NCBI GenBank assembly: GCA_028532985.1
Contig: JANCIK010000007.1
Span: forward strand, 2,294,001 to 2,358,000
Direction: 5' to 3'
DNA length: 64,000 bases
Source of the DNA: Stropharia rugosoannulata
Taxonomy: Eukaryota; Basidiomycota; Agaricomycetes; Agaricales; Strophariaceae
The stretch's first letter is position 1. Every line of letters starts with the position of its first letter. The notes under the pieces were generated by a model, which saw only the letters and a program-made list of their open reading frames with translations, did no database searches and was not told where the DNA came from. This document shows, in pieces, positions 2,006 to 50,582 of this stretch. The position numbers and the translations under genes are program-made.

Positions 2006-4254
2006 TGGTTTCTGCGTTGTGCTATGCGAGGTGGACCTCTAGGTACAGTGGGGACGGTCACAACTTGTCCTGTGTTTGGATCCTCCAAGGTTATAGTCTG
2101 ATCTTCGCTCCTATAGTTATGTATGACACTGGCAGTGAGGATATCAAAAGGACGACCTAATAGAATATCGTATGCTGGGGCACGGATGATGTGGACTTGC
2201 ATATACAAGGTAACATTGCCTATGCGAAAGGGGACGTTGCGAGCGAGGCCAAGTGACTGATCTATGCTTCCATTAGCTGACTGCATGTTGAGCGTGATAG
2301 TGGGATCGTAAGTGAGTGAAAGTTCATGACAAACATCCTCGGACATTGCAATAATTTGACTTCCTGGGTCTAGGATGCATTCAATCCTTTGCGAGTTGTC
2401 GACTATAGGAAATATTGATCGAAGCGCAGCCGATTCTTTGGCTACTACAAGGCGATCTGGGTCGGGTTTTTCACCATGGTGCAGTGAGCGATAATACTGC
2501 TCAAAAGGATCATCAATAATAGTAGCACCCTCTGGTACTTGTCGTTGTTGGCTTGCTGTGAGCGCTACCATGTGTGGCATGTGGTGATATGTGTTTGCAA
2601 GACGTTCCTGGGATCGTTCCTCCTGTAGTAAATTATTCTGTGCTGTATTATCGATGTTGGTGCTTCGCTTGGCTGTGGTTGCGTTCTTGTACTGATTACG
2701 AATGTCTGGAGATATTGACAAGAGTTCCCTTTGAGTAATTGTGACTGGAGCTTCAAGTGATCGATTGTACACAGCAGTAGAGATGTCTGCCTCGTGTATG
2801 GGTGTTATATTGCGATAAGCCACTTCACCTTTCTTAACCGTGGCGTTGGGAATTGCTGGGACGTTTCTGTGCTGCGGGGGAAGGTATGTTGCGTCCACAA
2901 CACTTCTGAATGGATGTTCAGGCTCTTCATCGATTGAAGTCGGTGGTAATACCCTTGTAGATGTGTCTCGAGTGTCCAAAGGTCTGTGTACCGGTTGCGA
3001 ATCATTCTGCGACCTCTGAGGTGTTGTATCACGAGTTTGCGACGCAGTTGGAGCAGGAGTTTCGTCAAAATCTGTGTTAGGTGCTCGCTCCTTCTGTGCG
3101 CGTGTCCGGATGATTGGAGTAAAGCCTGGGCGCTTAGATCGAAGGGTGAATATTTCTGCCTCAAGTAACGCGATCCTGTCGTCTGTGGTAAGCTGATAAT
3201 TTGCTTGAGTACTCTGAGATGCTGCGTTTGAAGTATGAGGGACGGAAACTGTGTCCAGAAGCATGGCAGATGAGAGCATAGCTGTGGCGAGCTGTCCAGG
3301 GTTACGGCGATGCCATTCGTCAATTTTATCCTTTAATAATGCCCCAGTAATTTCACGAGGGACAAAGGCTCCAGTTGGTAAGACTACCTTGCCGTCTATG
3401 TTACGTTTAACCTTTCCAGCACGCTGGTATTCATCCACAAGACTGCAGGCACGGATAAAGTGGTCTTTTCCGCAGAAGTTGCACTTTACTTCACGGTTAC
3501 CGGATTCAGAGTAAGGTGTAGACGAACGTGGACGATTTTGGCTGTTATTCATGACCTCCTTAATCGATTTGGTGAACTCTGACAATATTGAGTTGAGTTG
3601 CTCCGTTTTGACAAAGTCATTGGTGCTGGGAGGTACAGGAGACGTGGTGGATGCGCCTAGTGTGCGAGAAGCGCCGTGAGTGCCGTGTAAAATAAATTGT
3701 GCTGCGGCATAAACATCTGCAACATTGTAAGGATCCCCTGGAAGATGGTCCAAAAATTTGAGCTGTAACCGTTGGGAAATTTGCGTCCAAAGTGCCTCGG
3801 GAAATCCACGAACATAGAAGCGCTTCTGCTCTAGTTCGGATAGCCTGCCTTTCGAGATTAAGAATTTTGTAATGGCCAAAAATTGCGCATGATAGTCGGC
3901 GAGATCTGCGAGAGAATGAATGCCTAAACGCTGCCGCGTTCCAATTAAAAAATCCATATCAGCCAAAGTGTACTTGTAATCTTCGTTTGCACCTGGATAA
4001 AGGTCTCGTACTGCCTGTTTGAAGTCTCCAAACGATTTCATGGGGTCTGTAAATTCTGACAAGGCTTCCCATAGATCTGCGACACTGTAATCCACGTAAC
4101 GAGTTGCGTGGCGCTTCATTTCTGTCATGTCAGTAATTTTGGCGCCTTCCAGATGGTATTCAAGCTCAGAGAAGTATCTCTTGAGGTCTCGAGGTTTTGC
4201 GGGGTCAAATGTTGGTGCACTGCGGTCACCACGGGCTGGCATGCGTGTGGCCAT
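1996..4254 (-). CDS. gag: Ty3/Gypsy Gag with zinc knuckle and aspartic protease
   Basis: A 752-residue structural protein with a C-terminal retropepsin-like domain. The first 200 residues are helical and capsid-like. A zinc knuckle lies at residues 258-270 (CNFCGKDHFIRAC), with spacing C-x2-C-x3-H-x4-C, one residue shorter than the usual CCHC knuckle. A long Thr/Pro-rich linker follows, then the protease: LDPGS with the catalytic Asp near residue 629, and the flap-side motif ILLGRPF about 60 residues later. Gag packages the element RNA and the protease cleaves the polyproteins. The ATG at 4254 starts an uninterrupted frame about 300 bases downstream of the primer binding site. Pol follows in the -1 frame. 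The gene is intact. Confidence 0.88.
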   Translation of the reverse strand: MATRMPARGDRSAPTFDPAKPRDLKRYFSELEYHLEGAKITDMTEMKRHATRYVDYSVADLWEALSEFTDPMKSFGDFKQAVRDLYPGANEDYKYTLADMDFLIGTRQRLGIHSLADLADYHAQFLAITKFLISKGRLSELEQKRFYVRGFPEALWTQISQRLQLKFLDHLPGDPYNVADVYAAAQFILHGTHGASRTLGASTTSPVPPSTNDFVKTEQLNSILSEFTKSIKEVMNNSQNRPRSSTPYSESGNREVKCNFCGKDHFIRACSLVDEYQRAGKVKRNIDGKVVLPTGAFVPREITGALLKDKIDEWHRRNPGQLATAMLSSAMLLDTVSVPHTSNAASQSTQANYQLTTDDRIALLEAEIFTLRSKRPGFTPIIRTRAQKERAPNTDFDETPAPTASQTRDTTPQRSQNDSQPVHRPLDTRDTSTRVLPPTSIDEEPEHPFRSVVDATYLPPQHRNVPAIPNATVKKGEVAYRNITPIHEADISTAVYNRSLEAPVTITQRELLSISPDIRNQYKNATTAKRSTNIDNTAQNNLLQEERSQERLANTYHHMPHMVALTASQQRQVPEGATIIDDPFEQYYRSLHHGEKPDPDRLVVAKESAALRSIFPIVDNSQRIECILDPGSQIIAMSEDVCHELSLTYDPTITLNMQSANGSIDQSLGLARNVPFRIGNVTLYMQVHIIRAPAYDILLGRPFDILTASVIHNYRSEDQTITLEDPNTGQVVTVPTVPRGPPRIAQRRNQGF
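1999..2005 (-). promoter_or_regulatory. Candidate -1 ribosomal frameshift heptamer (GGGTTTT)
   Basis: On the minus strand the gag codons end CAG GGT TTT TAG. This places the canonical X XXY YYZ heptamer G GGT TTT in register directly before the gag stop. Slipping back one base reads GGG TTT TTA GAT and enters the pol frame, which is open without interruption. GGGUUUU is a known slippery sequence in barley yellow dwarf virus. I did not test for a downstream stem-loop. Confidence 0.65.
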
Positions 4255-4552
4255 TGTAGGTGTTGAAATTAATGATTCTTCAGATGAACTTGGGAATAGA
4301 GATAAAGCTGCTAGCTCTGCGTCGAGTGAAGAGGTTGATGAGGATGGGGAGTAGGATGGTAGATCAGATAGATTAAATTGAGGAGAGGTTGGTGTTGGTA
4401 AATTATTGTGTGTAGCTTCGATGTCAGGTACTTCAATAAAGAATGAGTCGTCGCTGAGGTTTTCTGGGTTTTGAAAGGCTGCAATTAACTCGTCACGGAA
4501 TGTGCGAGTGCGAAGGCGATTGTTGATTGAAGGCTCAATGTTGAATGAAACC

Positions 4553-4570
4553 CCCTCGCGGTGGGCTCCA
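4553..4570 (-). other. Primer binding site of element 1
   Basis: On the minus strand the 18 bases begin TGGAGCCCACC, the TGG complementing a tRNA 3' CCA. The identical 18-mer occurs at 48,820-48,837 in the second, very different Gypsy element. In both it starts exactly 3 bases inside the LTR edge. I cannot name the tRNA primer with confidence. Confidence 0.75.
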
Positions 4571-4573
4571 AAA

Positions 4574-5192
4574 TGATACGCCTACGAGCGCTCCACGTGC
4601 GGAATGGCGACGAGCAACAAACAAAAACGAAGGGGACACGTAGGGAACTCGTAGAAGGTGCGTAGGGGTGCGAGTGTGTTTCCAAAGGCTTCTAACCAAC
4701 AGTTCTCGAAGGTGAACAAAGTTTCTCCACAGTGTAAGCTGCCAATCAGCTTTGAACCACTTGGAGGCCGAAATGCGACGAGTAACGAGTGCGAGACGAG
4801 GTAGAACAGTAGACGAGAAGTCCACGCTAGGACTGGGCGATAAAACGAATATTACTTGTTATTTTGTAGCTGAAAGTACATGTCTTTTATACTACAGATA
4901 TGAGTCATAATTGTAAGCAAAGAATTATCTAGAAAAATTGTAAAATGGAACGGATGAGTAAGGAAATGAGTAATCTACATATTTACAAATTTTTAGAATG
5001 AAGGGGAACATTTTATGCAGTGAGGAACATAGATGCTACAACCATATTCCGTGAGCTGTGCACAAGCTGTGCGTGAAGCCGCGCCGGCCGCAAGTTTCCG
5101 GGTGATGCCGAGATATGCCGGGCGTGGGAAATGGACTTGTGCGCATCGCATTTTGTGCCGTTTTCGTGCGTGGAGCCGGCTACGGCTCATCA
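4574..5192 (-). repeat. 5' LTR of element 1 (boundaries tentative)
   Basis: The LTR begins 3 bases beyond the primer site with TGATACG and is proposed to end with ...CTCATCA, just where similarity to the HET gene family starts, giving TGAT...ATCA ends and a length of about 619 bases. On the minus strand a TATAAAAG box lies at 4884-4891, suiting a U3 promoter. The partner LTR is outside the window, so neither the outer end nor the target duplication can be verified. Confidence 0.55.
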
Positions 5193-5594
5193 TCGGCCAC
5201 TATGTTTATGAAGTTGCCCAGTGTCTTCAACAGCTGTTGCCCCTCGGCAGACGCGTACAGGCGGGTAATATCAGCGTCTTGAATGCCATTATGTGATCAA
5301 CCTCCAAGTACACAGCAGCCAAATTGTACTCACCTGGTGTCGTAGGTCTTAAGAACCCAATCAAACTCGCCAAAAGAGCTGACCCGCGTGCGTTGACGTC
5401 TACTCGTCGCTCTTAGCTTTCAAGGTATATCGCGATCTGTCATCAAATGCATCTCATTTACCAGCTGATTTCAGATGCGAGGGACCTGGTAATTCTGTTC
5501 ACCGTGGAGGCTTAGCTTTGATCTGATGACAGATGTTTTGTAACTCAATCTACTCACCTTGACCTGGAGTTAGGGAGCTCGTACTAGAAGTCAT
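5193..5594 (-). pseudogene. 5' remnant of a HET-domain gene, cut by the Gypsy element
   Basis: On the minus strand this stretch matches the upstream exons of the intact HET genes at 12.5 and 24.2 kb. It retains an exon encoding the equivalent of ADITRLCASAEG (ending near 5277), the preceding intron with GTGAGT donor, and an exon encoding ...SALLASLIGFL. A conserved ATG at 5594 opens MTSST, followed by a GTGAGT donor. The match stops abruptly at about 5193, inside the exon that corresponds to 14,300-14,419. The HET body is absent and is expected beyond the left window edge, on the far side of the retroelement. This copy cannot make the protein unless the whole element were spliced out. Confidence 0.7.
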
Positions 5595-37747: not shown

Positions 37748-38281
37748 GTACACGATGGTAGTCAACTAGTAACTGTTTAGTCGAGCTAACTTGGCGAACC
37801 CGGACCACACAATAGAGTGTCGAATATACTGTATCACATGAATGTAGTCAGTGCATTATACTTACGTCTAAATGATGTTAAATTCATACGGCTTCCGTTG
37901 TACTGAGCCTCGCCATGCTAGAATGATCATCCCGCTCGTTGATTCCACGTTGAATAGGGCAGTGGTCGAACCAGACTACGCATGCCTGTTTGAAAAATAT
38001 CTCCCTCTCTTGGAGAGGTTTATTCGCGATTGTGTTGAACAACGGCATCAGATATTTGAGTGCCTGCATTTCTTGGGGGGTAAATGTCATTTTCTACACA
38101 ACCATATGATTAGCATGAACAACACAATGGTCCGGTAATCTGTGCTCACTGTGTTAAATAAGAACTAAGGGGTTTTTATTTTTGATCCTCAATGCTACCT
38201 TTAAGTAGTTCAATTTGAACTGTACAGTTATTCAAAAAGACTGACTTCCGTGCTTGTTCTATAATTAGATGACCTAGCCGT
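37748..38281. other. Intergenic KDZ sequence up to the Gypsy insertion
   Basis: A 68-codon minus frame (37,884-38,090, TPQEMQALKYLMPLFNTIAN...) is amphipathic and could be a small exon; the overlapping plus frame (37,872-38,138) is weaker. Neither has a partner exon that I can join. The Gypsy element is inserted at 38,281/49,794, in sequence without a visible gene. Confidence 0.35.
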
Positions 38282-39234
38282 TGTGAGGTGCGAAGTTGGG
38301 TAGGACGGGTCTGAAAAGCCTGTCTCTATAGTTCACAATGTGCGAAGGCAATGTGTGTACAACGATAACACGTTGAAAAGGTTTTACTTGTTTTAAAACA
38401 AGGAGCTTCCAGTGTACGAGGTTTAAACAATGGTTTCCGATGCGAACTAGTATGAAGTGTGTAGGTAGAATTTAACCCTGAAGGAAGCTGGAGAAGTACA
38501 GAGATATTCTACTCCTTAAATACCCGTCTGGTTGCCATGCCCAGATGGTTCCATATACATCCACGAAGATCCGACCGCCTGTGCTGTCTTTATCTCGTCG
38601 GAAACCATGCTGCACTACAGCATGCTTCATATCTTGGCCACAAATTTCCTTATCTTCGGAAACCAAGCCCAAGCACAAGAAATCTTCCTGTGGCTGGATC
38701 ATCTCCATGTTCACCCCTAAACATACATCTCCTCCAACCCTCTCTCCACACCTATGTCCCTTGTGTTTGTGTCGAGATTCTTCTTCTCTCTGCTACCACA
38801 CGCCTGCATGTCGTCGGAAACCCTTGCATATCGTCGGAATCCGTTGCCATATTTGTCCCAGGTCGTATGTATGAGTATTTCCATGTGATTGACTCCCTTG
38901 TGGGTCCATAGTTACATCAGATTGTTAATATTGATCTGATGTTGTCGGCATCAGAAGTCCAATATTGCTCTGATGCTGTTATCATTCTTGATCTGCCATT
39001 GAGTTGTAATAACATCTTGAGTCTTCCTTGTGCTTGTCTCTTGTTTCATCATGTACATATTTCATATCTTGCATCTTCATATCTTAGACTTCATATTTCG
39101 TGCTTCTTCTTGTTCTTTCAGTTTCCGATAGTAGTTTCCGATCGTCATGGCGGATATGTTGCTTCTTGTGTATCTATGTTCTGAACCTTATGGTTTTTCA
39201 TGTTTTCACGAGGGGCCAGCCCCAGCCCCTCACA
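38282..39234 (-). repeat. 3' LTR of element 2
   Basis: 953 bases, TGTGAGG...CCTCACA, ungapped match to 48,841-49,793 with one difference. It contains six TTTCCGA/TCGGAAA sites (38,434, 38,598, 38,656, 38,814, 39,122, 39,135). Open frames inside it (up to 124 codons) are duplicated only because the LTR is. Confidence 0.95.
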
Positions 39235-39250
39235 TCTCCCCCCAACTTTT
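39235..39250 (-). other. Polypurine tract of element 2
   Basis: On the minus strand AAAAGTTGGGGGGAGA lies directly before TGTGAGG of the 3' LTR, the expected primer for plus-strand DNA synthesis. It fixes the inner LTR edge and shows that the antisense genes lie inside the element. Confidence 0.85.
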
Positions 39251-39272
39251 AAAACACCACCCTCCTGGGTGG

Positions 39273-39288
39273 TCGGAAACCTATAAAT
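39273..39288 (+). promoter_or_regulatory. TCGGAAA motif plus TATA box of antisense gene A
   Basis: TCGGAAA (39,273-39,279) is followed after two bases by TATAAAT (39,282-39,288), 33 bases before the ATG at 39,321. The side-by-side placement suggests a regulated core promoter on the plus strand. Confidence 0.55.
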
Positions 39289-39320
39289 TTCAGCCAAAAG
39301 CGTCGTCGCCATCAAGCACC

Positions 39321-40064
39321 ATGGACCCCGCAGCAGAAAGAATATTTCGCTCGCTCTGTTTTGCTCCAGGAAACCGAAGCCATGCATTCGTTGTACCAAC
39401 AACCATGCGTGAATTTGCGTTGTCCATCCGTCACCAACATGAAATCCTGTGCCTCGCCATCTACAAGGACATCCGCACACGCAGCGTACGAGAACTGAAC
39501 ATAATCGACCATGCGCAAGTGGGAGCATACGTCCATGATCACCTTGATCACATGGTAAGCCCTCGAACCGTTTCACAGCTGGCCCTGCTAATGATAGCAC
39601 AGCGCTTATTGCTATGCTCTCGTGTCAACATGCGGCCATCAAACGAGCGTGAAATTGAGCATATGATTCCGCCTGAATGCCGCTACCTAAGCGCAAGTGC
39701 CAGACATTTACTGGAGATGTTTCCGATGGAGGAACACGAAGGGTTCGAGTATTGGTCAACCATACTGCGGTTCATGGCGCTATATGCTGAGGACACCGCC
39801 GATGCAACCAAAGAAAACCAAGTCGACTTCAAAGAATTTAATGAACTGGACAGCAACAGTCAGTGGTGGATACAGTTTTCAAACCGTGTCAAAGCCGAAG
39901 ACCCCCTTGAAGAGCACCTGCCCGCATTCAGGCCAGCCGCAACACCTGAAGACACATCGGATATCGAAGAAATCCCAGCGGCGATCTTTCATCTTCAAAC
40001 GGCTGTGCCCTCCCAGCGTCCACATGCCAGATTCCGAACATCGGTGCAAGAGATGGATATATAA
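39321..40064 (+). CDS. Antisense gene A of element 2, unknown function
   Basis: 247 residues from MDPAAERIFRSL to ...SVQEMDI. The frame remains open upstream into the LTR, but the ATG at 39,321 is preferred because it follows a TATA box and a pyrimidine-rich leader. The segment 39,555-39,602 (GTAAGC...CTAAT...CACAG, 48 bases, a multiple of three) is a plausible retained or removed intron. The protein is mostly helical, with an acidic C-terminal third (EDTADATKENQVDFKEF, PEDTSDIEEIP). I recognise no domain. It runs opposite to gag-pol, between the polypurine tract and pol, and is tightly packed against gene B (38 bases). Confidence 0.6.
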   Translation: MDPAAERIFRSLCFAPGNRSHAFVVPTTMREFALSIRHQHEILCLAIYKDIRTRSVRELNIIDHAQVGAYVHDHLDHMVSPRTVSQLALLMIAQRLLLCSRVNMRPSNEREIEHMIPPECRYLSASARHLLEMFPMEEHEGFEYWSTILRFMALYAEDTADATKENQVDFKEFNELDSNSQWWIQFSNRVKAEDPLEEHLPAFRPAATPEDTSDIEEIPAAIFHLQTAVPSQRPHARFRTSVQEMDI

Positions 40065-40066
40065 AG
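40058..40066 (+). promoter_or_regulatory. TATA-like box of antisense gene B
   Basis: TATATAAAG overlaps the stop codon of gene A and lies about 40 bases before the ATG of gene B. Confidence 0.4.
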
Positions 40067-40102
40067 CGTAGAGCACTAGTAGATAGTTCCGTAGCACCCA
40101 CA

Positions 40103-40591
40103 ATGCAAGCACCTTTGCGTCTATATCTTCAATCCTTAGTGCTTGAGTTGCCCACCGATCTAAACGATTTCCGATCGCGATTTCCGATCCCATACGTCTT
40201 CAAACATTGCCTTGATCCCTTCGTCGACGCCCTAGAATACAAATACACACAAATACTCCAGCTTGACACACCCAACCTGCAACCTGTCATAAATGATCTC
40301 CGGTCCTTCTTGTTCCTAGGACAGACCATAGCAGTACGCAGCTTCTTCAGATGACGTGCCGCCCTAACACAAGCACAGTATATTGCATGGCATGGTCGTC
40401 AGCATGTAGCCATACATCGGTCACCTGTCGAGCAAATCACCATGGTCGAATTGAGGGTGTTAATGCGTATGCGATACATGACAATGACATTTGGATACAC
40501 CGGGCACAAGATTCCCGAAATCAAGGAGCGCATGGACGACGTTTTCTTCCAGTATCAACAGGCATGTGTGTGCAGAGTAGGCGACCCATAA
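40103..40591 (+). pseudogene. Antisense gene B of element 2, with an in-frame TGA
   Basis: The frame from ATG 40,103 reads MQAPLRLYLQSLVLELP... AVRSFFR, meets TGA at 40,352-40,354, then continues in the same frame with equally protein-like sequence (RAALTQAQYIAW ... IPEIKERMDDVFFQYQQ) to a stop at 40,591. It is 163 codons in all. The sequence is FFR-TGA-R, so a C-to-T change in CGA would create it. It may be a recent null allele, a read-through codon (TGA followed by C), or the end of a shorter 83-residue protein. No domain is recognised. Two TTTCCGA sites (near 40,158-40,176) lie inside its coding sequence. Confidence 0.5.
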
Positions 40592-40695
40592 CCAACAACC
40601 GGCGGTCGGAAATTAGCTAGATAATCTCCAGACAAGTGACATGTATCCATGCGTCCAGATCGTCCAATGCCAAGCAACCCAGCGCCTGAAATCCG

Positions 40696-40704
40696 CATAA
40701 AAGG
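40696..40704 (+). promoter_or_regulatory. TATA-like box of antisense gene C
   Basis: CATAAAAGG lies 39 bases before the ATG at 40,735, the same spacing as in genes A and B. Confidence 0.4.
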
Positions 40705-40734
40705 AAAGGCAACTGGTCTGTCCAAACACCAGAA

Positions 40735-41245
40735 ATGAGCACCACCACTCGATTCACCGCATTATTGACCACAGCTGTGAAAAATCCAACGGACATCATG
40801 CAGGTCCTAGAGCATGCCATTCGGCCCACCATAGACCAATTGTTATCCGATCAAATGCTACCTCGTTCCGCAGCAGACACGATGGAAACACATCGGACAC
40901 TTGCCGCCCTATGCCATTACGTTGTAAGTTGTCCCACTTGACCTGTTGAAATCAAACCCAATTGACAATCCATATTCTGCACAGAATGACCATTTTGAAG
41001 ATCACATATCCGCGAAACAATTCCGACCCCGGTCATCGTGGACATTACTCTTGCTTCGCCGGATCATGAGCGAATACGGAGCCGTTCTTGTAGACAGCGA
41101 GCAGGATAAGGCATTAAGCCTACTCAAAGCAGCTGAGAAGCAGTCGCAAGGTTTCCGCCACTGCTACTTGTGCGAGACTGACTTCACCATAGATGGAGTA
41201 GAGAGATGGAGGGACTGGATTGAGAGACAAGCCAATCAGCCGTAG
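40735..41245 (+). CDS. Antisense gene C of element 2, two exons
   Basis: Exon 1 is 40,735-40,923 (MSTTTRFTALLTTAVKNPTD...LCHYV); the intron 40,924-40,984 is GTAAGT...CACAG, 61 bases; exon 2 is 40,985-41,245 (NDHFEDHISAKQFRP...ERQANQP). The total is 149 residues. The intron is phase 0 with consensus ends and contains stops, so the splice is well supported. Exon 2 has CYLCETDF, which could be half of a zinc site. No family is recognised. A spliced gene lying antisense in a retroelement cannot be maintained by reverse transcription of its own mRNA, so it must travel as part of the full-length gag-pol RNA, in which its introns are in reverse and are not removed. Confidence 0.65.
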
Positions 41246-41863
41246 ATACACTGCTCATAGATGTAAACCCATTATAATAGATTTCCGCACACAATTTTGA
41301 CGCTGTCATATGATGCCGAAAGGGGCCGAATGAAAATGAAAGATGCCGAAGTAAGACTGAACATGCCGCCCAGCTTACACATGCGCCATCACAGCCGAAA
41401 ATGCCAGTTGAAAACTCCGCGGTGGCCCAGAACATTGCCGCAACAACAACCTGACAGCAGACCAAAGAGGTATTGCCATTTCCTAAAGCAGCACGGCATG
41501 TCACCATAAACCCGGCGCCATCACGCTGTCATACTTGATTAGGCAACGCCGCTTTCCAGAACAAGAGCCACGGTGATTTCCGACCTAAAAATAGAAAATC
41601 CGAACAAGATTCGCGTCGAAGTTATCGCAGTTCCAGTAAAGGCATCCCAATTGTCCAACATACAGGACCGAGTCATAGAGAAGAATCCACAGCATTCTAT
41701 CGGTTTCTTCATAATGCCATCTGCGCATGATGCTGTACCCAGTCCAAGCTAGCCGATATCCGAAAACGTGCAGAACCACAGTCCTAGAAGAATATAAAAG
41801 CCCGCCCATTCCACTCATACTTTCACCATTCTTTCCTTCCCTCCTCCATCTCCCTTCCCAATA
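41246..41863. other. Promoter region of antisense gene D
   Basis: No convincing gene; a 70-codon frame (41,297-41,509) is low-complexity. It contains one TTTCCGA (41,578), the TATA box of gene D, and a pyrimidine-rich leader (41,821-41,863). Confidence 0.45.
41793..41800 (+). promoter_or_regulatory. TATA box of antisense gene D
   Basis: TATAAAAG, 64 bases before the ATG at 41,864, followed by a CT-rich stretch typical of fungal leaders. Confidence 0.6.
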
Positions 41864-42859
41864 ATGCCTCCTCGTCGTACCGCTCGTCCTGCGTCTACAC
41901 ACGAAGTCGATATGCGCTGGGCCGCCCCTCAAATCCTTGGTCTCGCCGAAGGATGGTACGAATACGAGCAAGTAAGTAGCCATGGAGTATTGAATGTCTG
42001 TTTTATTAACCATTGATCCAGATATGTTCTTGGTGCAAAAATCACCCCGGTTACATGTGTACCTTGCGCTACACACCTCGCTGGAGCAGGGCGTGTACCA
42101 ACTGCAAGGTTGACAAAAAGAATTGCAGCAATAATACTGCCGAATGTGTAAGTTTCAGGTAATTGTTTTCAGTCGTTTTTCATGCTGATAACTTCATCCG
42201 TAATTTAGAAACAACACCCGGGCGACTTCTTGACTCGCGCCCTAGCTGGTAGCGACTTCTCATACGACCGACGGTCCTGTACCGTCCACCCAGATCCCGA
42301 AGAAGAAAGTGATGACAAGAGCGACAGCAACCAGGACGACGATGACGAGGAAGTAGACGAACTCGAAGAAAATGACGAGGACAACACAGCAGCCCTCCAC
42401 GACGCGCCCACGAGCCCTATGCGCATTGAGGATGACGGCCCTCTTCCCTATTACGACGCTATGCACGCTTTCGAGTACACAGATTCCATCGTCGCGAATC
42501 AAAAGGATGTTGGCGAAGGAACCTCAGGTAAGTAATTGCAATTTCCTATCATCGACAGATTTCGGCAACCGTATTGTACAGGTATTACGTGTTCAAGCCC
42601 CAGCACGAGTACTAGCGGTCCTGTCGAAGGTTTACCATCGTATGCGCCATATACACAGTTGGTGCGAGATTTCCGCGAATGGCAAACGACTGCCAACCCG
42701 ACAAATGGGCTTGAAGAGCTGGACGACCTCTGCAACAGAAACTTGCGACATTATTCCGATATGGAAAATCGACTTCGCAATCTGGTGGAATTATCGATGG
42801 AGCGCATTGAGGAGATCCGTAAAATGTCCGGGGAAGTCAAAAGGTTCCGTAGGAAGTAA
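41864..42859 (+). CDS. Antisense gene D of element 2: Zn2Cys6-like, acidic, coiled-coil protein
   Basis: Four exons: 41,864-41,971, 42,022-42,147, 42,209-42,527, 42,582-42,859. Introns are 50, 61 and 54 bases with GTAAGT donors. The 276-residue protein has cysteines at 38, 41, 49, 61, 64, 71 and 78. The first six are spaced C-x2-C-x7-C-x11-C-x2-C-x6-C, within one residue of the fungal Zn2Cys6 pattern, and CTNCKVDKKNC resembles the basic half-site. Residues 107-137 are almost all Asp/Glu/Ser, like an activation domain. The last 50 residues (NRNLRHYSDMENRLRNLVEL...) form a predicted coiled coil with a basic end. This is the plan of a DNA-binding regulator. Zn2Cys6 proteins usually contact CGG, which lies within TCGGAAA, the motif enriched throughout this element. 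Function is inferred. Confidence 0.7.
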
Positions 42860-42938
42860 AAGGGATTATATGTATTTCTTCTTGTCGTATTTCCTTTCAC
42901 CCTTCGTCGGAAACCAGTTGTCATAATATCTTGTAATC

Positions 42939-42944
42939 AATAAA
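42939..42944 (+). terminator. Polyadenylation signal of gene D
   Basis: AATAAA 80 bases after the gene D stop, in an AT-rich stretch between the convergent 3' ends of gene D and pol. Confidence 0.5.
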
Positions 42945-43029
42945 TTGTCTTGGCCATGCATATTTTAGTTTGACAACCATAATTTCATAATCTTGTAAAA
43001 AACAGAAACATAACCTAAAGGAAAAAGAG

Positions 43030-43035
43030 TTTATT
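43030..43035 (-). terminator. Polyadenylation-like signal after pol
   Basis: AATAAA on the minus strand, 82 bases beyond the pol stop. If used it would end gag-pol transcripts before the antisense genes; full-length genomic RNA must read past it to the 3' LTR. Confidence 0.35.
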
Positions 43036-43116
43036 TAACAAATGAGAAGAAATGAACTTGAAACTGTTGAAGCTCCAATAAGAAATTTAAGTTGTGTAAG
43101 TGTTTTCGGAAACTTG

Positions 43117-46100
43117 TTATTCATCATCAGGCGCCACTTGCGAGTCCTCGGGTACTTCTTCATGAACCATGCCTTCAATTAAATCCTTGGGTTGGGATAA
43201 TAGTTCCCATGGTATTGCCAGCGGTTCCCTTGATATATAAGGTATCAAGCGATATGCGGCGAATCTCTTGTAGGAGACAGCTCCACTAAGTTCAGCACAG
43301 ATGTAAGACCCTCCTTTCGTTCGTCGTAACACCATTAGAGGCCCGAAGTATTGTGGTTTTGTTTTCCGATCAAGTGATTTTTCAACTGGTGAATTCCTGA
43401 CTAGAACCAAAGTACCTGGTGCGAAGTCCTGCGGTACGATGCGATGCTTATTATACTGTTCAAAATAACGAGCTTGTCGCAGCCGTGCTTGCTCCACTTT
43501 GTCCTTGACCCTTTCAAGATCTTCCGGTCGCTTCTGCAGCATTATAGCTCTTCTTGCTATTAGCTCTTCTTCGGAAATCATATCGACTTGATCGGGAAAC
43601 ATGAAGGTCGCTTCTGTGATGTCAAATGGGAATAATGGCTCCACTCCGTGCGCGATATAGTAGGGAGTATAACCTGTTGATTTTTGTACCGTAACACGTT
43701 CGGCCCATAAAACAAATCGGAGAATTAGTGGCCATATTGATAAGTCGCCTTCACAAGTCTTGACTATTGCTTCCCTAACATCGAGATGTCGTTTTTCAAT
43801 CAAGCCGTTTGCCTGTGAATTATATCCCGAAATTCTGATGTGGTAGATTCCATATTTTTCCGCCAAATAGTTCACGGCTTTAACCCAAGGTGTACCATTG
43901 TCTGTCACGATAATAGCCATAGCTCCCCATCGCGACATAACATCCAACAGAAATTCTCCTATAACCGTATGGTTTTCCGACGCTACAGCCAGAGCTTCAG
44001 GCATTCCCGAAAGTGAACATCGTAGATGAAGACAGAGATGTTTTCCCCCTTTTCCTTTGGGCATAAAGAAAGTATCTGCATGAACCTTGACAAATAGCGA
44101 CAATGGACGAGCTACCGTTGGCGGAATGAGGTTGTTTACCCTTGACTGTCGCTGACATATATCGCAAGTCTTCAAGTACCACGTAAGATCATTACTGATG
44201 TTAGGCCACCAAAAACGCTTCGTGAGCCTATTCCACACAGTAAAATAAGACTTATGTCCTAAATTATTGTGTACTTCTTGGAGTATCCGAAGCCTATCTT
44301 CTTGTTGTACCACTTGTTTATGTTCACCATCGTCGGACCTTTTCCATAGTTTTCCGTCCAGTATGAAGAATTGCCTTACTTTCTTGAGGAAGCGGTCGTA
44401 CTCCTTTCTTGTGCGAATCCATGCGGGTCTTTCGGGGTCGCCTAGAAATTCTTTGACCTTCTTTAATTCCTCATCCATGTCAGCTCCTCTGTCGGAAACC
44501 GGTAACTTAAGCGTTGTAGTAATCTCCGAACGGTGAGGTACCGATTTAGCTGCAATAAGTACCATAGCCTTGTAAGACAATGACGATCCCGGTATTTTCT
44601 TCTGTACCATGGACATGTGAGTGAATTTCCGATTGTCATTTTTGTTTAAGACCCAGATTCCGAAGCCACATGCCCTGTCAATCCAGTCTTCTACTTCTTC
44701 TTCGGAATCTTCTTGAGGATCTAATTCTGATCGTCTCCTTCTTGACAGACCGTCTGGTGAATGTGATTTTCCAGGGACGTGTTCTGGCTTGAAGTCAAAC
44801 AAAAGTATAGCGGCTATCCAGCGATTTATCGTAGCATTAGGTTGTATATCGGGGTTGTTTAACATTCCCTTGAGGTAACTCGCATCAGTCCTGACTATCA
44901 AGTTTTCCACTCCAACCAGGTATATCCGATACGCTCTAAGGCTGCGAAATAGACCATATAACTTGATCTTGGCTTGTGAGTATCTTGATTCTCTTTCGTT
45001 CCAAGTTATAGACCCAAACCACGCAGGATGTTCCTTTCCGTCTTCTTTAACCTGAGATAAAATAAAACCCACGGCTATGTTGCTTGAGTCCACCTCCATT
45101 ATTATCTGTCCTTCGGATTCATAGTCCAATGCCGTTAATGCTGGAGACTGAATTAAGAGACGCTTTAAACTGTCCATTGCTTCTTGTTCTCTTTGTCCCC
45201 ATGTGAATTCAACGTCCTTCTTTGTTAGTTCAGTTAATGGTCTTGAATGCATTGCATAATCTTTTATAAAGATATGCATTACACCCAATGTTCCCAAGAA
45301 TGAGCGAACTTCTGTCAAGTTTTCACAAGGTTTCCAATCCCTGATAACTCTGACTTTTGACTCATCAACTGTCCTTCCTTGGATGCTGCACATATGGCCA
45401 ACAACATTAATTCTTGGTACAGCCAAAAAGGATTTCGAGGCATTGAAGGTTCCTCCAGCATGCTGTATCCTTTGAATAATGCGATGTACATTGTTCAAGT
45501 GTTCCCAGACAAATCTTCTGATACCAGGGTTTTCGGAAATCGTTTCATAGACCCCATTCTCATCTTGATAATAAGATCGTGGTCCTTTGACCGGTACATC
45601 GTCCACAAAAGGTGCCGTAAATTCAGGAATCTCCGGCTCCAGGATAAATGACACATCTCCTTGTTGGACTTGAACCGAATTTGTAAATCCTTGTGGTAGA
45701 CGGGTCAATCTCAGGTTTCTGATAGGTGAAGAGAACGTAGTATAATCCCTTGAATCTTGATGAAGAACCCGATGGTCAAATCCTACAAACAAATCAAACA
45801 TGGCATAGATAGTTCTTCCACCGAAAGATTCCGCATAGAGTTCTACAACTGGCGGTAGAGCTGAGTCTTTTATGGTTACTGCATTCAACCTTCTCAGGTC
45901 ATGCACTACCCGTATTGCTCCGCTTTTCTTTGGCACATATAGGATCCTGGACCGATAAGGTGAACTAGAAGGTTCATATACTTTGCTTGCGACTTTATCT
46001 TGAAAAATTCTCGTGACTTCTTTAGCTATGCCTGGAGGTATCGGTATCGGTTTTTCCGCCCATGGTTCATGCGGTACAACGGGTATCTTTAGTGGTTCAA

Positions 46101-46653
46101 AATAGTCTTCTCTGAAGGCACCTTTCTCCATCTCATTCCAGGCGAATCCCATCTCATGTTCTTTAATGATCCATTGAACTAGACGGGCTTCATCCGGTGT
46201 CAAGAAGCCATCTTCATTTATGTTCCAGGCGTCCATTCGTTCTTTTGTATAGCGTATTCCTGGTTCAATATGGTCCACTTTAAAAGGTAATGGTTTCATA
46301 TTAGCCAGAGGATCCGATGGAATTCTTCTAATAACACGATATTCTTCGGGAAGCGTAGTTGACACAGGAAACGTCCGTCTCGCCACAGGTTTATATTTTT
46401 TCCTAGCTTTTATTATTAGTGCTCTTTGTTGAAAAGAGTAAGCATAAGTCTTCTGTAAACATTGGCCGATAAATCTGGCCGAAACTTCAAAATTAAAATT
46501 AGTAGGGTATATTTCGTGATATGATGATCCTCTTTCATCATCTATTCTTGCTGTGAATAAGGGAGTTATAAATCGTCCAAATGATAGTGCTGAAGGAATA
46601 TCCTTCTTGTGCTGTTCATGTCGTTTCTCGTGCACTATATTTAACATGAACAT
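43117..46653 (-). CDS. pol: Ty3/Gypsy Pol: reverse transcriptase, RNase H, integrase
   Basis: 1178 residues counted from the first in-frame Met; the frame is open further, to the slippery site at 46,689-46,695. Reverse transcriptase: MFDLFVGFD with Asp near 287 and FVDD at 349-352. RNase H: MEVDSSNIAVGF. GKSHSPDGLSRR then leads to integrase. The integrase zinc part is HNNLGHKS...CDICQ. The DDE core has HADTFF, VTDNGTPW and GLIEKRH, with 34 residues between the last Asp and Glu. A C-terminal GPL/YICAELSG module follows, with no chromodomain. All key residues are present, and with near-identical LTRs this copy is probably active. It replicates the element in virus-like particles and inserts the cDNA. 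Confidence 0.95.
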   Translation of the reverse strand: MFMLNIVHEKRHEQHKKDIPSALSFGRFITPLFTARIDDERGSSYHEIYPTNFNFEVSARFIGQCLQKTYAYSFQQRALIIKARKKYKPVARRTFPVSTTLPEEYRVIRRIPSDPLANMKPLPFKVDHIEPGIRYTKERMDAWNINEDGFLTPDEARLVQWIIKEHEMGFAWNEMEKGAFREDYFEPLKIPVVPHEPWAEKPIPIPPGIAKEVTRIFQDKVASKVYEPSSSPYRSRILYVPKKSGAIRVVHDLRRLNAVTIKDSALPPVVELYAESFGGRTIYAMFDLFVGFDHRVLHQDSRDYTTFSSPIRNLRLTRLPQGFTNSVQVQQGDVSFILEPEIPEFTAPFVDDVPVKGPRSYYQDENGVYETISENPGIRRFVWEHLNNVHRIIQRIQHAGGTFNASKSFLAVPRINVVGHMCSIQGRTVDESKVRVIRDWKPCENLTEVRSFLGTLGVMHIFIKDYAMHSRPLTELTKKDVEFTWGQREQEAMDSLKRLLIQSPALTALDYESEGQIIMEVDSSNIAVGFILSQVKEDGKEHPAWFGSITWNERESRYSQAKIKLYGLFRSLRAYRIYLVGVENLIVRTDASYLKGMLNNPDIQPNATINRWIAAILLFDFKPEHVPGKSHSPDGLSRRRRSELDPQEDSEEEVEDWIDRACGFGIWVLNKNDNRKFTHMSMVQKKIPGSSLSYKAMVLIAAKSVPHRSEITTTLKLPVSDRGADMDEELKKVKEFLGDPERPAWIRTRKEYDRFLKKVRQFFILDGKLWKRSDDGEHKQVVQQEDRLRILQEVHNNLGHKSYFTVWNRLTKRFWWPNISNDLTWYLKTCDICQRQSRVNNLIPPTVARPLSLFVKVHADTFFMPKGKGGKHLCLHLRCSLSGMPEALAVASENHTVIGEFLLDVMSRWGAMAIIVTDNGTPWVKAVNYLAEKYGIYHIRISGYNSQANGLIEKRHLDVREAIVKTCEGDLSIWPLILRFVLWAERVTVQKSTGYTPYYIAHGVEPLFPFDITEATFMFPDQVDMISEEELIARRAIMLQKRPEDLERVKDKVEQARLRQARYFEQYNKHRIVPQDFAPGTLVLVRNSPVEKSLDRKTKPQYFGPLMVLRRTKGGSYICAELSGAVSYKRFAAYRLIPYISREPLAIPWELLSQPKDLIEGMVHEEVPEDSQVAPDDE

Positions 46654-46667
46654 CTTTCCCGACCATG

Positions 46668-48650
46668 TTAATTCAGTCGGGATTCTGGAAAATCCGCTGA
46701 CTCTTTTTCGGAAACCTTATTCCTGGGCTGAGTTGGAATAGTAACCACCTTCTGCGTGTTGGGGCAAGTCAAAGTGATTTCCTGGTCGCCATTTGTATAA
46801 TCCCTAGTAGTGCATCCAGTATACACAAAGAACGGTCGTCCTATCAGGACTTGAAAAGGGGCTTTATCCACGACATGTACTTGAAAATAGAGTTCAAGGC
46901 TTCCAATAGTGATTTTAAGGTTTTCGCACATTCCATCCGTTTGCGATAATTCCGTGTTGGCAGACTCCATGTATATTTTCCTTTCTGGGTTTATATTGTG
47001 AGACAGTTTCCTCCATATGCGCTTGTCCATTGCCATGATTTCCGATCCTTGGTCCAAAACACATTCCGCCGTGAATTCACCGTTTAGCAACGCAGGTATC
47101 ACCCTGAGTTTCATAAGGGGAGAAGCCGTCAAAAGGACTCTATCTGATGGCCCATTTTCCGAAGCAAATTGTAGCACATAAGACCCTTCATTTTCTTCGC
47201 CGTGGACATAGCTAACCGTCGGAATTCTCTTTGGTGTAGTTGTTTCCTTGAAATATTTCCGAAGTTCTCCAGAAATAGCCAACAACTCTCTTTGAGAAAT
47301 AGTAATTTCTGCATCCAAAGATTTCGATATGACTTTCTTAAGAAGGTCCAAATTTTCCGCTCCTGAGGTGAATCTATACTGGGGTCCTTTAGCCGGTTCA
47401 AATCTTACATGTGCTTCTGGTATTGTCTTTTCCGATTTCCTTTCGGCAATCACGACTTCAGGGACTTTTTCATAAGCAGATGAGTTTTTTCCTGGTCCAG
47501 GTTTGTCTTGGGGCAAAGACCTTGTCTTCAGATAAACCTCACCGATTTCTTCGTCGACTTCTTCGAGTTTACTGGAAGAATTAAACAAGGTTTCAGCCGT
47601 AGTACAGGAAAACATCATCGTGGTAGCTGGCGACAGGTGAGGGGGTGCATCTTGAGCACGTTGTAGTTTGAGAATGTTTTCGATCCTTTCTTTTATTGTT
47701 CCAGTTCCATTGATCCAGTCGCCGTTAGCCATTGTGAATCTACCATTCAGTCCTTGTTTGATGATTCCCTTGTTTATAAATTCATCCAGCAAGTTGCAAG
47801 ACCTCATAATATGATTAATGTCTCCGCAAAACAAGCAACCAGGGGCATAGCGCGGAGTGGAACGATACATAGGTCTTTCTTGCATCGGAAAAGATGTATT
47901 TGGTTGGCCTTGCATAAACATCTTTATTGATCCTAATTCCGATGTCATTTTCCTTAGCATGAGCTCAAGAGCAGTTTCTTCGGTTTTCGTCCGTTCACGA
48001 GGTGTGTCTTCAAGGCCATACCTGTCAGAATAAGCGTTATCTTGAAGAACATATCGAGCCGCTTGATTAACTTGAAGATAATCATGAACTAGGCCCGGTT
48101 TCCGCTTTGGGTCTTCAGCCGTTAATTGAGTAAGAACCTTCGCCCTGAATTCTTTTGGGAGACCTAGAACATAGTTTCTGTTGATGTCGTCTCTTGATGA
48201 TAATTGCTCCTTCTCCAGATAAGTAGCTATAATCATGAATTCACAATGATATTCTGCTAGAAGTTCTTGATTATCCATGGGTTTGCTCGAAAACTTCTGT
48301 ATTAATTTATGCAGGTCGTTGACTGAGTATTTGTAGAGCGAATCCAACCCAGGGAAATATTCCAGTAATATTTGTTTATTCTCCTTCCAGGATTTGTTTT
48401 CATCTAGAATATTCTTCCATGTTTCGTGGTATCGGTAATCCACATACCACAGGGTTTTTGTAATCCGCGTGATATCCGAAGTGTCTCCCCTGTCTTTGCA
48501 TAATTCCTCGATGTCCTCTAGGTATCGATGTAAAGGAGTAGTTGGTCCTGTAAACGATGGAGCATCTTTTGAGTTGCGGTTTGGGTAAGGCTTGACTTTG
48601 GGCGCCACGGTTTGAACTTCAAAAGGGTTAGCTTCGATTCCGTGATCCAT
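46668..48650 (-). CDS. gag: Ty3/Gypsy Gag with CCHC zinc knuckle and aspartic protease
   Basis: 660 residues. The N-terminal capsid-like half is mostly helical. One canonical CCHC knuckle lies at 272-285 (CLFCGDINHIMRSC). A Glu/Lys-rich linker follows, then a retropepsin-like domain with LDQGSE (Asp near 533) and VLIGRPF about 70 residues later. It forms the particle and matures the polyproteins. The ATG at 48,650 lies about 170 bases from the primer site, and TTTCCGA directly precedes it. Pol follows in the -1 frame. Architecture equals that of the gag at 1996-4254, though sequence identity is low. The frame is intact. Confidence 0.92.
   Translation of the reverse strand: MDHGIEANPFEVQTVAPKVKPYPNRNSKDAPSFTGPTTPLHRYLEDIEELCKDRGDTSDITRITKTLWYVDYRYHETWKNILDENKSWKENKQILLEYFPGLDSLYKYSVNDLHKLIQKFSSKPMDNQELLAEYHCEFMIIATYLEKEQLSSRDDINRNYVLGLPKEFRAKVLTQLTAEDPKRKPGLVHDYLQVNQAARYVLQDNAYSDRYGLEDTPRERTKTEETALELMLRKMTSELGSIKMFMQGQPNTSFPMQERPMYRSTPRYAPGCLFCGDINHIMRSCNLLDEFINKGIIKQGLNGRFTMANGDWINGTGTIKERIENILKLQRAQDAPPHLSPATTMMFSCTTAETLFNSSSKLEEVDEEIGEVYLKTRSLPQDKPGPGKNSSAYEKVPEVVIAERKSEKTIPEAHVRFEPAKGPQYRFTSGAENLDLLKKVISKSLDAEITISQRELLAISGELRKYFKETTTPKRIPTVSYVHGEENEGSYVLQFASENGPSDRVLLTASPLMKLRVIPALLNGEFTAECVLDQGSEIMAMDKRIWRKLSHNINPERKIYMESANTELSQTDGMCENLKITIGSLELYFQVHVVDKAPFQVLIGRPFFVYTGCTTRDYTNGDQEITLTCPNTQKVVTIPTQPRNKVSEKESADFPESRLN
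46689..46695 (-). promoter_or_regulatory. Candidate -1 frameshift heptamer (GGATTTT)
   Basis: In the gag frame the codons are GCG GAT TTT, so G GAT TTT is in the X XXY YYZ register, seven codons before the gag stop. Moving back one base enters the pol frame, which stays open (GFSRIPTELTW...). GGAUUUU is the known slippery site of red clover necrotic mosaic virus. A downstream structure was not evaluated. Confidence 0.5.
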
Positions 48651-48819
48651 TTCCGATATATGGCTGAGTACTGAAGATATTTGGCTTCCTGACGGTGTCG
48701 GTCTTTTCCTTCTTCTCTTGATGGGCGCTTCAGGAGGTTGTAGGGGTATAGCAAATTCTGCAGCAAGTTGACGAGTTATCCGACGGTCTGGAACAGATGG
48801 ATCTATTGTGAACTGTAGA

Positions 48820-48837
48820 CCCTCGCGGTGGGCTCCA
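48820..48837 (-). other. Primer binding site of element 2
   Basis: The same 18-mer as in element 1 (TGGAGCCCACC...), starting 3 bases inside the 5' LTR edge at 48,841. Confidence 0.8.
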
Positions 48838-48840
48838 CGT

Positions 48841-49793
48841 TGTGAGGTGCGAAGTTGGGTAGGACGGGTCTGAAAAGCCTGTCTCTATAGTTCACAATGT
48901 GCGAAGGCAATGTGTGTACAACGATAGCACGTTGAAAAGGTTTTACTTGTTTTAAAACAAGGAGCTTCCAGTGTACGAGGTTTAAACAATGGTTTCCGAT
49001 GCGAACTAGTATGAAGTGTGTAGGTAGAATTTAACCCTGAAGGAAGCTGGAGAAGTACAGAGATATTCTACTCCTTAAATACCCGTCTGGTTGCCATGCC
49101 CAGATGGTTCCATATACATCCACGAAGATCCGACCGCCTGTGCTGTCTTTATCTCGTCGGAAACCATGCTGCACTACAGCATGCTTCATATCTTGGCCAC
49201 AAATTTCCTTATCTTCGGAAACCAAGCCCAAGCACAAGAAATCTTCCTGTGGCTGGATCATCTCCATGTTCACCCCTAAACATACATCTCCTCCAACCCT
49301 CTCTCCACACCTATGTCCCTTGTGTTTGTGTCGAGATTCTTCTTCTCTCTGCTACCACACGCCTGCATGTCGTCGGAAACCCTTGCATATCGTCGGAATC
49401 CGTTGCCATATTTGTCCCAGGTCGTATGTATGAGTATTTCCATGTGATTGACTCCCTTGTGGGTCCATAGTTACATCAGATTGTTAATATTGATCTGATG
49501 TTGTCGGCATCAGAAGTCCAATATTGCTCTGATGCTGTTATCATTCTTGATCTGCCATTGAGTTGTAATAACATCTTGAGTCTTCCTTGTGCTTGTCTCT
49601 TGTTTCATCATGTACATATTTCATATCTTGCATCTTCATATCTTAGACTTCATATTTCGTGCTTCTTCTTGTTCTTTCAGTTTCCGATAGTAGTTTCCGA
49701 TCGTCATGGCGGATATGTTGCTTCTTGTGTATCTATGTTCTGAACCTTATGGTTTTTCATGTTTTCACGAGGGGCCAGCCCCAGCCCCTCACA
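48841..49793 (-). repeat. 5' LTR of element 2
   Basis: 953 bases, one substitution from the 3' LTR (G at 48,927). As the upstream LTR of a minus-strand element it should carry the promoter; only a weak TATTTAAG-like box is seen near 49,073. It contains six TTTCCGA/TCGGAAA sites. Confidence 0.95.
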
Positions 49794-50582
49794 CCGTTAT
49801 CCAATGGATGACTGTTTAAAATAGCGCTGAAAATACAGGGAGTTGAAGAAATGTTACATTAGGTACTGCTCAATGGCACCTGAAATTTACAGAGCTAGCT
49901 GATAAGATACATGACAATGCAATACCAAATTTTCAGTAAGATAACTTACTCTGTTCGCTCAATTTGAGATGTGGGATCTTTTCTAGCCAATCACATTGCA
50001 TATAAATTAGTGCTGAGAATATCATACAAAGGAAAAGTAACGGTAGTATTGACCTTAAACCACTACATAGGACCTTAAAATTTATGCTGGTACATGCCTG
50101 ACATAGTAGCAATGTATATGTAGTTTTTTTGTGGGGCAGAAAATTGCTGGGGTGAAGTTCTGGCAAAGTACATATGTTCTGAGTAAGACGAAGGGTGAAT
50201 CCCTTACTGAACTTGCGCCGAAAACTCAGAATTTCAATGTTCTCCTTTGGATAATTTTGACAAAAATATCAGACAGACTACATTCAAATGGTGCACAGTA
50301 GTCAATCTTCCGTTCTCTCTACCCTGATCATTGTTTCAATAACAAGGTAGAAGCATTTTTTAAGTACATTATTGCCAGGTCGTAAAACCAGTTCTAAAAA
50401 TAGATACACATCGTCGAGTGCTATCATACTAAGGCAGAAATCACTTGGATGTTATGGACACTTTCACTATGAATATATACCACTCATTTTCAAGGCTGAG
50501 CTTGTGATTCTGGCAGACATTGTTTCAAAGATCAATTCAACGGATTCACAATGTACCAAGAAAGTAATCATAAGTTGTACAT
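49794..50582. other. KDZ sequence without a gene
   Basis: AT-rich, with short frames only. It joins directly to 38,281 when the Gypsy element is removed. It lies downstream of the Cys-rich gene at 50,583-51,498. Confidence 0.45.

Follow-up and report, generated by a model that had tools for sequence, protein, structure and literature searches.

VANDALs are Mutator-like DNA transposons. For those of Arabidopsis, sequence-specific self-regulation encoded by the transposable element (TE) has been worked out (PMC5735166), and in this VANDAL/VANC system a short word shows enrichment within a single TE family, other TEs containing few copies of it (PMC5735166, PMC10398659). The sites of VANC21 are mainly non-coding, lie in same-orientation tandem arrays and are gained and lost quickly (PMC5735166). 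Among long terminal repeat (LTR) retrotransposons, plant Ty3/Gypsy elements of the Retand type carry antisense open reading frames (ORFs) between pol and the 3′ LTR, the commonest of which are predicted to bind DNA, and a regulatory role has been proposed for them; the function of antisense genes in LTR retrotransposons is stated to be unknown (PMC7264820, PMC11963269). Boty of Botrytis cinerea and Sclerotinia is a fungal element with an antisense ORF at this place (PMC7264820). Fungal DNA transposons with TET/JBP dioxygenases are regarded as opposing methylation or hypermutation of their own family, and the same study reports that it found no retrotransposons with TET/JBP (PMC12730594). In this study, we analysed a 64,000-nt stretch of the Stropharia rugosoannulata genome (48 Mb in 20 contigs; contig JANCIK010000007.1, positions 2,294,001 to 2,358,000), hereafter called the window. 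It contains an 11.5-kb Ty3/Gypsy LTR retrotransposon at 38282-49793 on the minus strand, and this window copy served as reference for all copy comparisons. We propose, with a probability of roughly 0.5 (0.52), that antisense gene D of this element encodes a self-targeting regulator analogous to VANC, which would act through the dispersed word TCGGAAA (complement TTTCCGA).

The exact word occurs 33 times in the element, six times in each LTR, as counted in the initial annotation, versus 6 times in the remaining 52,478 nt of the window, where about six had been noticed. Its 27 independent sites comprise six in the LTR, eight in the region between pol and the 3′ LTR, six in pol (43117-46653, minus strand), six in gag (46668-48650, minus strand) and one at the gag start. 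Twelve of the 27 sites lie within gag and pol, and three more within antisense genes A and B. The presence on both strands and in coding and non-coding parts, which had also been noted, was confirmed with 12 versus 15 sites per orientation (P 0.70). Balanced strands favour a target at the DNA level, and from this equal use we infer action on DNA rather than on RNA. TCGGAAA is the top 7-mer of the element in an order-2 Markov model (z 14.1), and the next six 7-mers overlap it. In codon-preserving shuffles, gag held 1.03 and pol 0.69 words on average, and none of 2000 reached the six observed in either gene, so that the enrichment survives control for composition and codon use. Order-1 to order-3 Markov simulations (1000 runs each) never reached the six words of the LTR or the eight of the 3′ region. 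The flanks of the word are restricted: C never precedes it, G never follows it, and C stands two bases after it in 16 of 27 sites (P 2e-5). An origin of the words by duplication of a longer unit is unsupported, as the flanks of the sites are otherwise unlike.

Long word arrays are absent from the element. Two head-to-tail pairs with a period of 13 bp (TCGGAAA-N6-TCGGAAA) are present on the minus strand, one in the LTR (39122-39141) and the other, with a different spacer, inside gene B (40168-40187). This paired pattern occurs 97 times in the genome versus 0 times for the reversed pattern, and the 74 matches that were printed with letters all bear the two spacers of the element or one-base variants of them. 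The sole exact TCGGAAATCGGAAA in the genome (L001, C13:2341544-2341557) lies outside the listed places of the family, and no further words were found within 3 kb around it.

For analysis of conservation, the gag-pol comparison covered 8 of the 20 other copies with a full-length reverse transcriptase (RT) match at 96% or more, and the LTR comparison 29 of 40 other listed places; 40 of 121 LTR candidates were scored. Each reference word was set against 7-mers within 300 nt that hold a cytosine-guanine dinucleotide (CpG). Words were intact at 0.94 versus 0.67 for matched 7-mers in the gag-pol copies (13 sites, 8 copies; 0 of 5000 draws as high), at 0.90 versus 0.61 around D (7 sites, 24 copies; P 0.0002) and at 0.96 versus 0.72 in the LTRs (6 sites, 29 copies; 0 of 5000 draws), the sites 43363, 43571 and 43974 being counted in both the gag-pol and the around-D set. 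As the copies are related to each other, P values are optimistic in all copy comparisons. Because CpGs decay in copies, the analysis was repeated on non-CpG columns with non-overlapping sets: 0 of 50, 12 of 35 and 0 of 30 word columns were variable, fewer than among same-base neighbours (P 0.028, 0.026 and 0.021). CpGs within the word changed at 0.031, 0.021 and 0.026 versus 0.075, 0.132 and 0.069 for those outside the word that also stand in a TCGG context (P 0.02, 0.0006 and 0 of 5000 draws, the third set having three LTR controls only); the latter thus change 2.4-6 times faster. The site at 42907 is present in just 17 of 25 copies.

Seven word columns are present in other copies and absent from the reference, versus a mean of 1.77 per CpG 7-mer type, and 14 of 2324 such types reach seven; some of these columns may have been lost from the reference. 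When counted per one-mismatch opportunity, the gain exceeds that of sampled CpG 7-mers by less (0.156 versus 0.091). Among the scored 7-mers, the word is at the top in seven of eight other copies and third in L070/L053, which carries deletions. We conclude from these comparisons that the word sites are under selection in LTRs and coding DNA, at CpG and non-CpG positions.

In the whole genome the word shows no excess (6,966 versus 6,815 for the reversed word), a figure to which the family itself contributes. A genome-wide excess is seen for the 9-mer TCGGAAACC (740 versus 421), and its listed clusters coincide with LTRs of the family. Two other Gypsy families were read in part, a sister family with 61-62% RT identity and the family of the other Gypsy element of the window with 53%. 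The sister element was read at C12:322500-334500, beginning inside its first LTR; this stretch contains no D and no word inside the element, the single word at 333797 being located beyond the second LTR. For the 53% family, 5.5 kb (window 1-5500, without any word, as stated in the initial annotation) and 2.6 kb (C7:2289900-2292500) were read on both sides of 1.5 kb of presumed pol, and neither the word nor a recognised antisense gene was found in them. The best 7-mer z in the sister family and in the other Gypsy element of the window was 4.9 and 7.6, respectively, versus 14.1 in the main element, and one sister-family 8-mer reached z 8.4 with 6 copies versus 15.0. Among the genome matches listed, D and its Cys domain were restricted to places of this family, except for one 36% match (E 0.021), and gene A was found in this family only. 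A host origin of the Cys domain, suggested by the 36% match, was not supported by a shallow look at the surrounding 1.5 kb, which shows no C..C.{5,8}C gene. As far as read, the word is specific to this family, and the expectation that relatives lacking D also lack the word holds in these two partly read families, that is in few contrasts.

Some further features of the two families were recorded. In or beside the second LTR of the sister element lie open frames in antisense orientation, 94 and 151 codons long (L061, C12:330349-331051, minus strand); homology of A, B or C to an antisense frame in the LTR of this family looked likely by eye and was rejected after shuffling (P 0.20, 0.33 and 0.57). 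In the other Gypsy element of the window (29-5181), LTRs are marked by repeats common to window 4574-5181 and C7:2291553-2292160, and the second LTR of this family (at least 2291553-2292160) lies close to pol. A long open frame to the left of this element resembles, by eye, HET-domain proteins.

Gene D (276 aa; 41864-42859, plus strand) has four exons at 41864-41971, 42022-42147, 42209-42527 and 42582-42859. Exon 2 encodes the Cys domain, C-x2-C-x7-C-x11-C-x2-C-x6-C, exon 3 an acidic, hypervariable part, and exon 4 a Ser-rich stretch followed by a likely helical C-terminus, a coiled coil by eye, and a basic tail. For comparison, 25 of 29 D matches were aligned, leaving out L057 (only 191 nt long) and L058-L060 (further parts of copies L056, L054 and L053); the last codons of L054-L056 are dropped in this alignment. 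GT-AG is kept at all three introns in 25 of 25 copies despite differing intron letters, and the frame is open in 18 of them (broken in L038, L039, L042, L045, L046, L047 and L053). The ratio of nonsynonymous to synonymous substitution rates (dN/dS), determined for nine pairs among 12 of the 25 copies, was 0.016-0.057 in exons 1-2 at dS 0.34-2.4, 0.13-0.28 in exon 3 and, in seven unsaturated pairs, 0.11-0.19 in exon 4. The uncorrected ratio (pN/pS) of exons 1-2 was 0.020-0.083, that of gag 0.07-0.33 and that of pol 0.08-0.26 (8 copies each). By its splice signals and these ratios, D is a real, constrained, spliced gene, and few parts of the element are under as strong constraint as its Cys part, the values of which partly overlap those of gag, pol and A. 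Whole D matched no Pfam family at E≤1, and relatives elsewhere were found neither in protein searches (E≤1 and E≤10) nor in viral contigs, a weak negative as small spliced genes are easily missed.

Gene D with its promoter (41680-42960; L032-L056) forms an island of divergence in surroundings that are about 85-99% identical per 200-nt block; beyond 43880, L054 and L055 are unmatched in this flank comparison, and L056 departs beyond 43480. In the farthest variants, identity to the window copy is 52-59% in exon 3 and recovers after D. The pS value is 0.27-0.72 in D exons 1-2 versus 0.03-0.15 in gag and pol, and gag-pol backbones are about 96-98% identical among copies. From the window copy, L063/L052 is 1.7% away in gag-pol and 24% in D, and L065/L038 is 4.3% and 3.9% away, respectively; over 36 pairs of nine copies, backbone and D distances correlate with r = 0.29. 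Backbone and D evidently have separate histories, and the D variants are likely old lineages that recombination, for example template switching, has reassorted; alternatively, the mutation rate may be raised locally. Among the variants examined, the Cys domain and the word hardly vary, while the rest of D changes. This is what a binder with many sites predicts, because about 27 dispersed sites make a change of specificity costly, and the shared constancy of the DNA-binding-like part and the word suggests a relation of binder and sites. New compared with the initial annotation is the picture of D as a hypervariable cassette, which by the distances given is reassorted among homogenised gag-pol backbones with Cys domain and word nearly constant.

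Genes A, B, C and D occupy, on the opposite strand, the 3.9 kb between pol and the 3′ LTR. Gene A (247 aa; 39321-40064, plus strand) has a pN/pS of 0.07-0.28 in 8 copies, 5 of which have a full-length open frame, and gene C (149 aa; 40735-41245, exons 40735-40923 and 40985-41245, plus strand) one of 0.16-0.61 in 11 copies; a Pfam scan of both matched no family. Gene B (40103-40354, plus strand) has 83 codons up to a stop that is kept in 10 rows, two of which are the window itself. Past this stop the frame is open for 78 codons in the window (to 40591), and 4 of 10 rows soon hit another stop; the downstream frame (40354-40591) is possibly an intron or a second product. One word (39273-39279, plus strand) stops 2 bp short of a TATA box (TATAAA at 39282) that belongs to gene A. 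A word-like block (41753-41765, plus strand) lies 29 bp before the TATA box of gene D (41793), and its positions 41757-41763 match the word exactly in 14 of 25 copies and with a one-base difference in 10, including the window copy. The word reported just before the gag ATG (48650-48656, minus strand) is indeed at the gag start and shares its last base with the A of the ATG.

The assignment of the element to the Ty3/Gypsy LTR retrotransposons is based on paired LTRs, a target duplication, gag, and pol with RT, RNase H and integrase. The 3′ LTR (38282-39234, minus strand; words at 38434, 38598, 38656, 38814, 39122 and 39135) and the 5′ LTR (48841-49793, minus strand; six words) are flanked by the duplication CCGTT at 38277-38281 on the left and 49794-49798 on the right, as read from the sequence letters. 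Because of this duplication and of a single mismatch in 953 bases between the LTRs, the insertion is regarded as young. RNase H and the integrase zinc domain in pol and DUF4100 in gag all scored above cut-off in Pfam, and RVT_1 in pol reached 23.4 bits, under its cut-off of 29.6. A protein search with gag yielded six relatives at 42-55% identity, of which the three named come from two agarics, Galerina marginata and Agrocybe pediades. Upstream of the first ATG of pol, its frame stays open for 63 nt (46653-46716), overlapping the end of gag in another frame; pol may be expressed by frameshift or from its own start. Some copies lack D. Copy L072 is without stretches matching 40697-41153 and 41479-43210, has identical LTRs (0/953) and retains six words in 2.2 kb, which is expected if D acts in trans; a deletion following insertion may be an alternative. 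Shortened copies without a D match are found at C5:322916-332228 (LTR pair 0/953 different) and C7:1621819-1629984 (0/965), and these are perhaps non-autonomous and moved in trans.

In the mechanism proposed, protein D would bind TCGGAAA, and bound D would act in trans on every word-carrying copy. In this way, transcription would be driven or protected at the LTR, at the antisense genes and at the promoter of D itself, and the most likely route would be to counteract chromatin or CpG-methylation silencing along the element. Activation or anti-silencing is our reading of the sequence, from which activation, protection from silencing and repression are indistinguishable. The acidic, fast-changing part of D could be an effector or a host-facing surface; it would diversify and be exchanged among copies, with the DNA-binding part and its numerous sites locking each other in place. 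A fuller version, which we consider tentative and rather doubtful, is a retrotransposon-borne, sequence-specific anti-silencing system in which the word is placed in LTRs, non-coding DNA, gag and pol so that D covers the element, and in which there is an ancient, reassorting pool of D variants with a fixed DNA-binding domain, as in an arms race against silencing by the host.

Several observations weigh against D as such a regulator, in addition to the relatedness of the copies. The Cys domain piece reached E 1.7 and 9.2 bits with Pfam Zn_clus (PF00172), missing the cut-off of 21 bits. The usual Zn2Cys6 pattern is C-x2-C-x6-C-x5-12-C-x2-C-x6-8-C, and the first C-x7-C interval of D is one residue longer. 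In Gal4-type clusters the basic half comes first, whereas in D it comes second. The term "Zn2Cys6-like" of the initial annotation denotes a resemblance of spacing only, a label not earned by Pfam. No solved-structure relatives of D were found (best E 0.099), and the fold predicted for exon 2 alone had a mean predicted local distance difference test score (pLDDT) of 67.6 and was not used. The window copy carries TATCCGA instead of the exact word in the block before D, D-less copies with identical LTRs indicate that D is unneeded in cis, and A and C are conserved too and might bind the word instead. The link between word and D comes from one family only and amounts to a single evolutionary association. 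Word density is modestly higher in LTRs than elsewhere (6 of 27 sites, P 0.031), an order-4 Markov model, which already holds much of the word, reaches the LTR and 3′-region counts (means 3.3 and 3.9, maxima 9 and 11), and 12 of 27 sites are in gag and pol, whereas VANC sites are few in coding DNA.

Among the rival explanations, a host transcription factor could bind the word, the element having evolved many sites to recruit it and D doing something else. Many LTR elements use host factors, the binding of D to the word is conjectural, and the richness of the LTRs in sites per kb is as expected for promoter sites. Recruitment to a promoter, however, needs no 12 preserved sites inside gag and pol, a genome-wide excess of the word is lacking, the printed paired matches carry the element's two spacers or one-base variants only, and two related Gypsy families of this genome lack the word in the parts read, so that we regard a host factor as unlikely. 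Quite unlikely in our view is that D binds the word and represses, as copy-number control or as an autorepressor quieting new insertions in a copy-rich genome. Autoregulation would be in keeping with the word-like block upstream of the D TATA box, and p22 of Ty1 is a precedent for self-limitation (PMC4599808); the acidic region and the preserved sites in coding parts would fit activation or chromatin opening better.

Recognition of the word by one of the other antisense products (A, B or C), with or without D, appears improbable. It would agree with the purifying selection on A and C, the restriction of A to this family and the word beside the TATA box of A, but A and C have no Pfam match, and D alone of the four has, by eye, a Cys6 metal-binding-like pattern, which is among the most constrained parts. 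Finally, the enrichment could be a neutral by-product of composition, codon use, unit duplication or protection of unmethylated CpGs from decay. CpG columns outside the word do change faster than others (0.07-0.14 versus 0.02-0.09), the order-4 counts and the small excess of gain per one-mismatch opportunity point in the same direction, and yet a neutral origin is contradicted as full explanation by the codon shuffles, the conserved non-CpG columns and the same-context CpG control, and the flanks at the word sites are unlike; we consider it very improbable. D as self-targeting regulator is the explanation we favour, and the interpretation in the initial annotation is partly supported.

An antisense gene is here paired with a candidate target word under selection, which makes its function testable. 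The element also shows that a word can be kept at the DNA level within codons of gag and pol, and that an accessory gene can vary strongly as a cassette while the retrotransposon backbone around it is homogenised. If the proposal is true, the element labels its own copies, and its protein uses the label to activate them or to protect them from silencing.

Compared with known systems, the element resembles VANDAL/VANC in its family-enriched word, its several TE-encoded proteins and a regulator with conserved and highly variable parts. The word is enriched in its own family and rare in other TEs, here in two other Gypsy families, each read in part. Differences are that this is an LTR retrotransposon with LTRs and reverse transcriptase, VANDALs being DNA transposons, and that its words lie in both orientations, to a large part (12/27) in gag and pol, without long arrays and with a fixed word. 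D is also set apart from the VANC protein family by the Pfam scan, not by sequence-to-sequence comparison.

With fungal Zn2Cys6 proteins (Gal4-type), D shares six cysteines at near-canonical spacing, and the word contains CGG; some yeast members favour CGGAAA-like sites. The longer C-x7-C interval, the basic segment in the second half and the low Zn_clus score set it apart. The TET/JBP transposons are fungal TEs with a similar presumed role, the protection of their own family from methylation or hypermutation; they are DNA transposons and act enzymatically. Boty shares the antisense ORF between pol and the 3′ LTR, and its mention in PMC7264820 includes neither a word nor a DNA-binding product. 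Among the titles and abstract beginnings listed by literature searches of open-licence PMC papers, no fungal LTR element with a regulator and word of this kind turned up. The Retand type shares the long region between pol and the 3′ LTR with antisense genes; it differs by a TRP28 domain, A, C and D here being without Pfam match, by tandem repeats in about half of the elements instead of a dispersed, preserved word, and by the four small genes here, of which C and D are spliced. By the features tested, the element belongs to neither Retand nor VANDAL; the Retand antisense genes are its nearest architecture, and VANC is its nearest working parallel, by analogy and not by membership.

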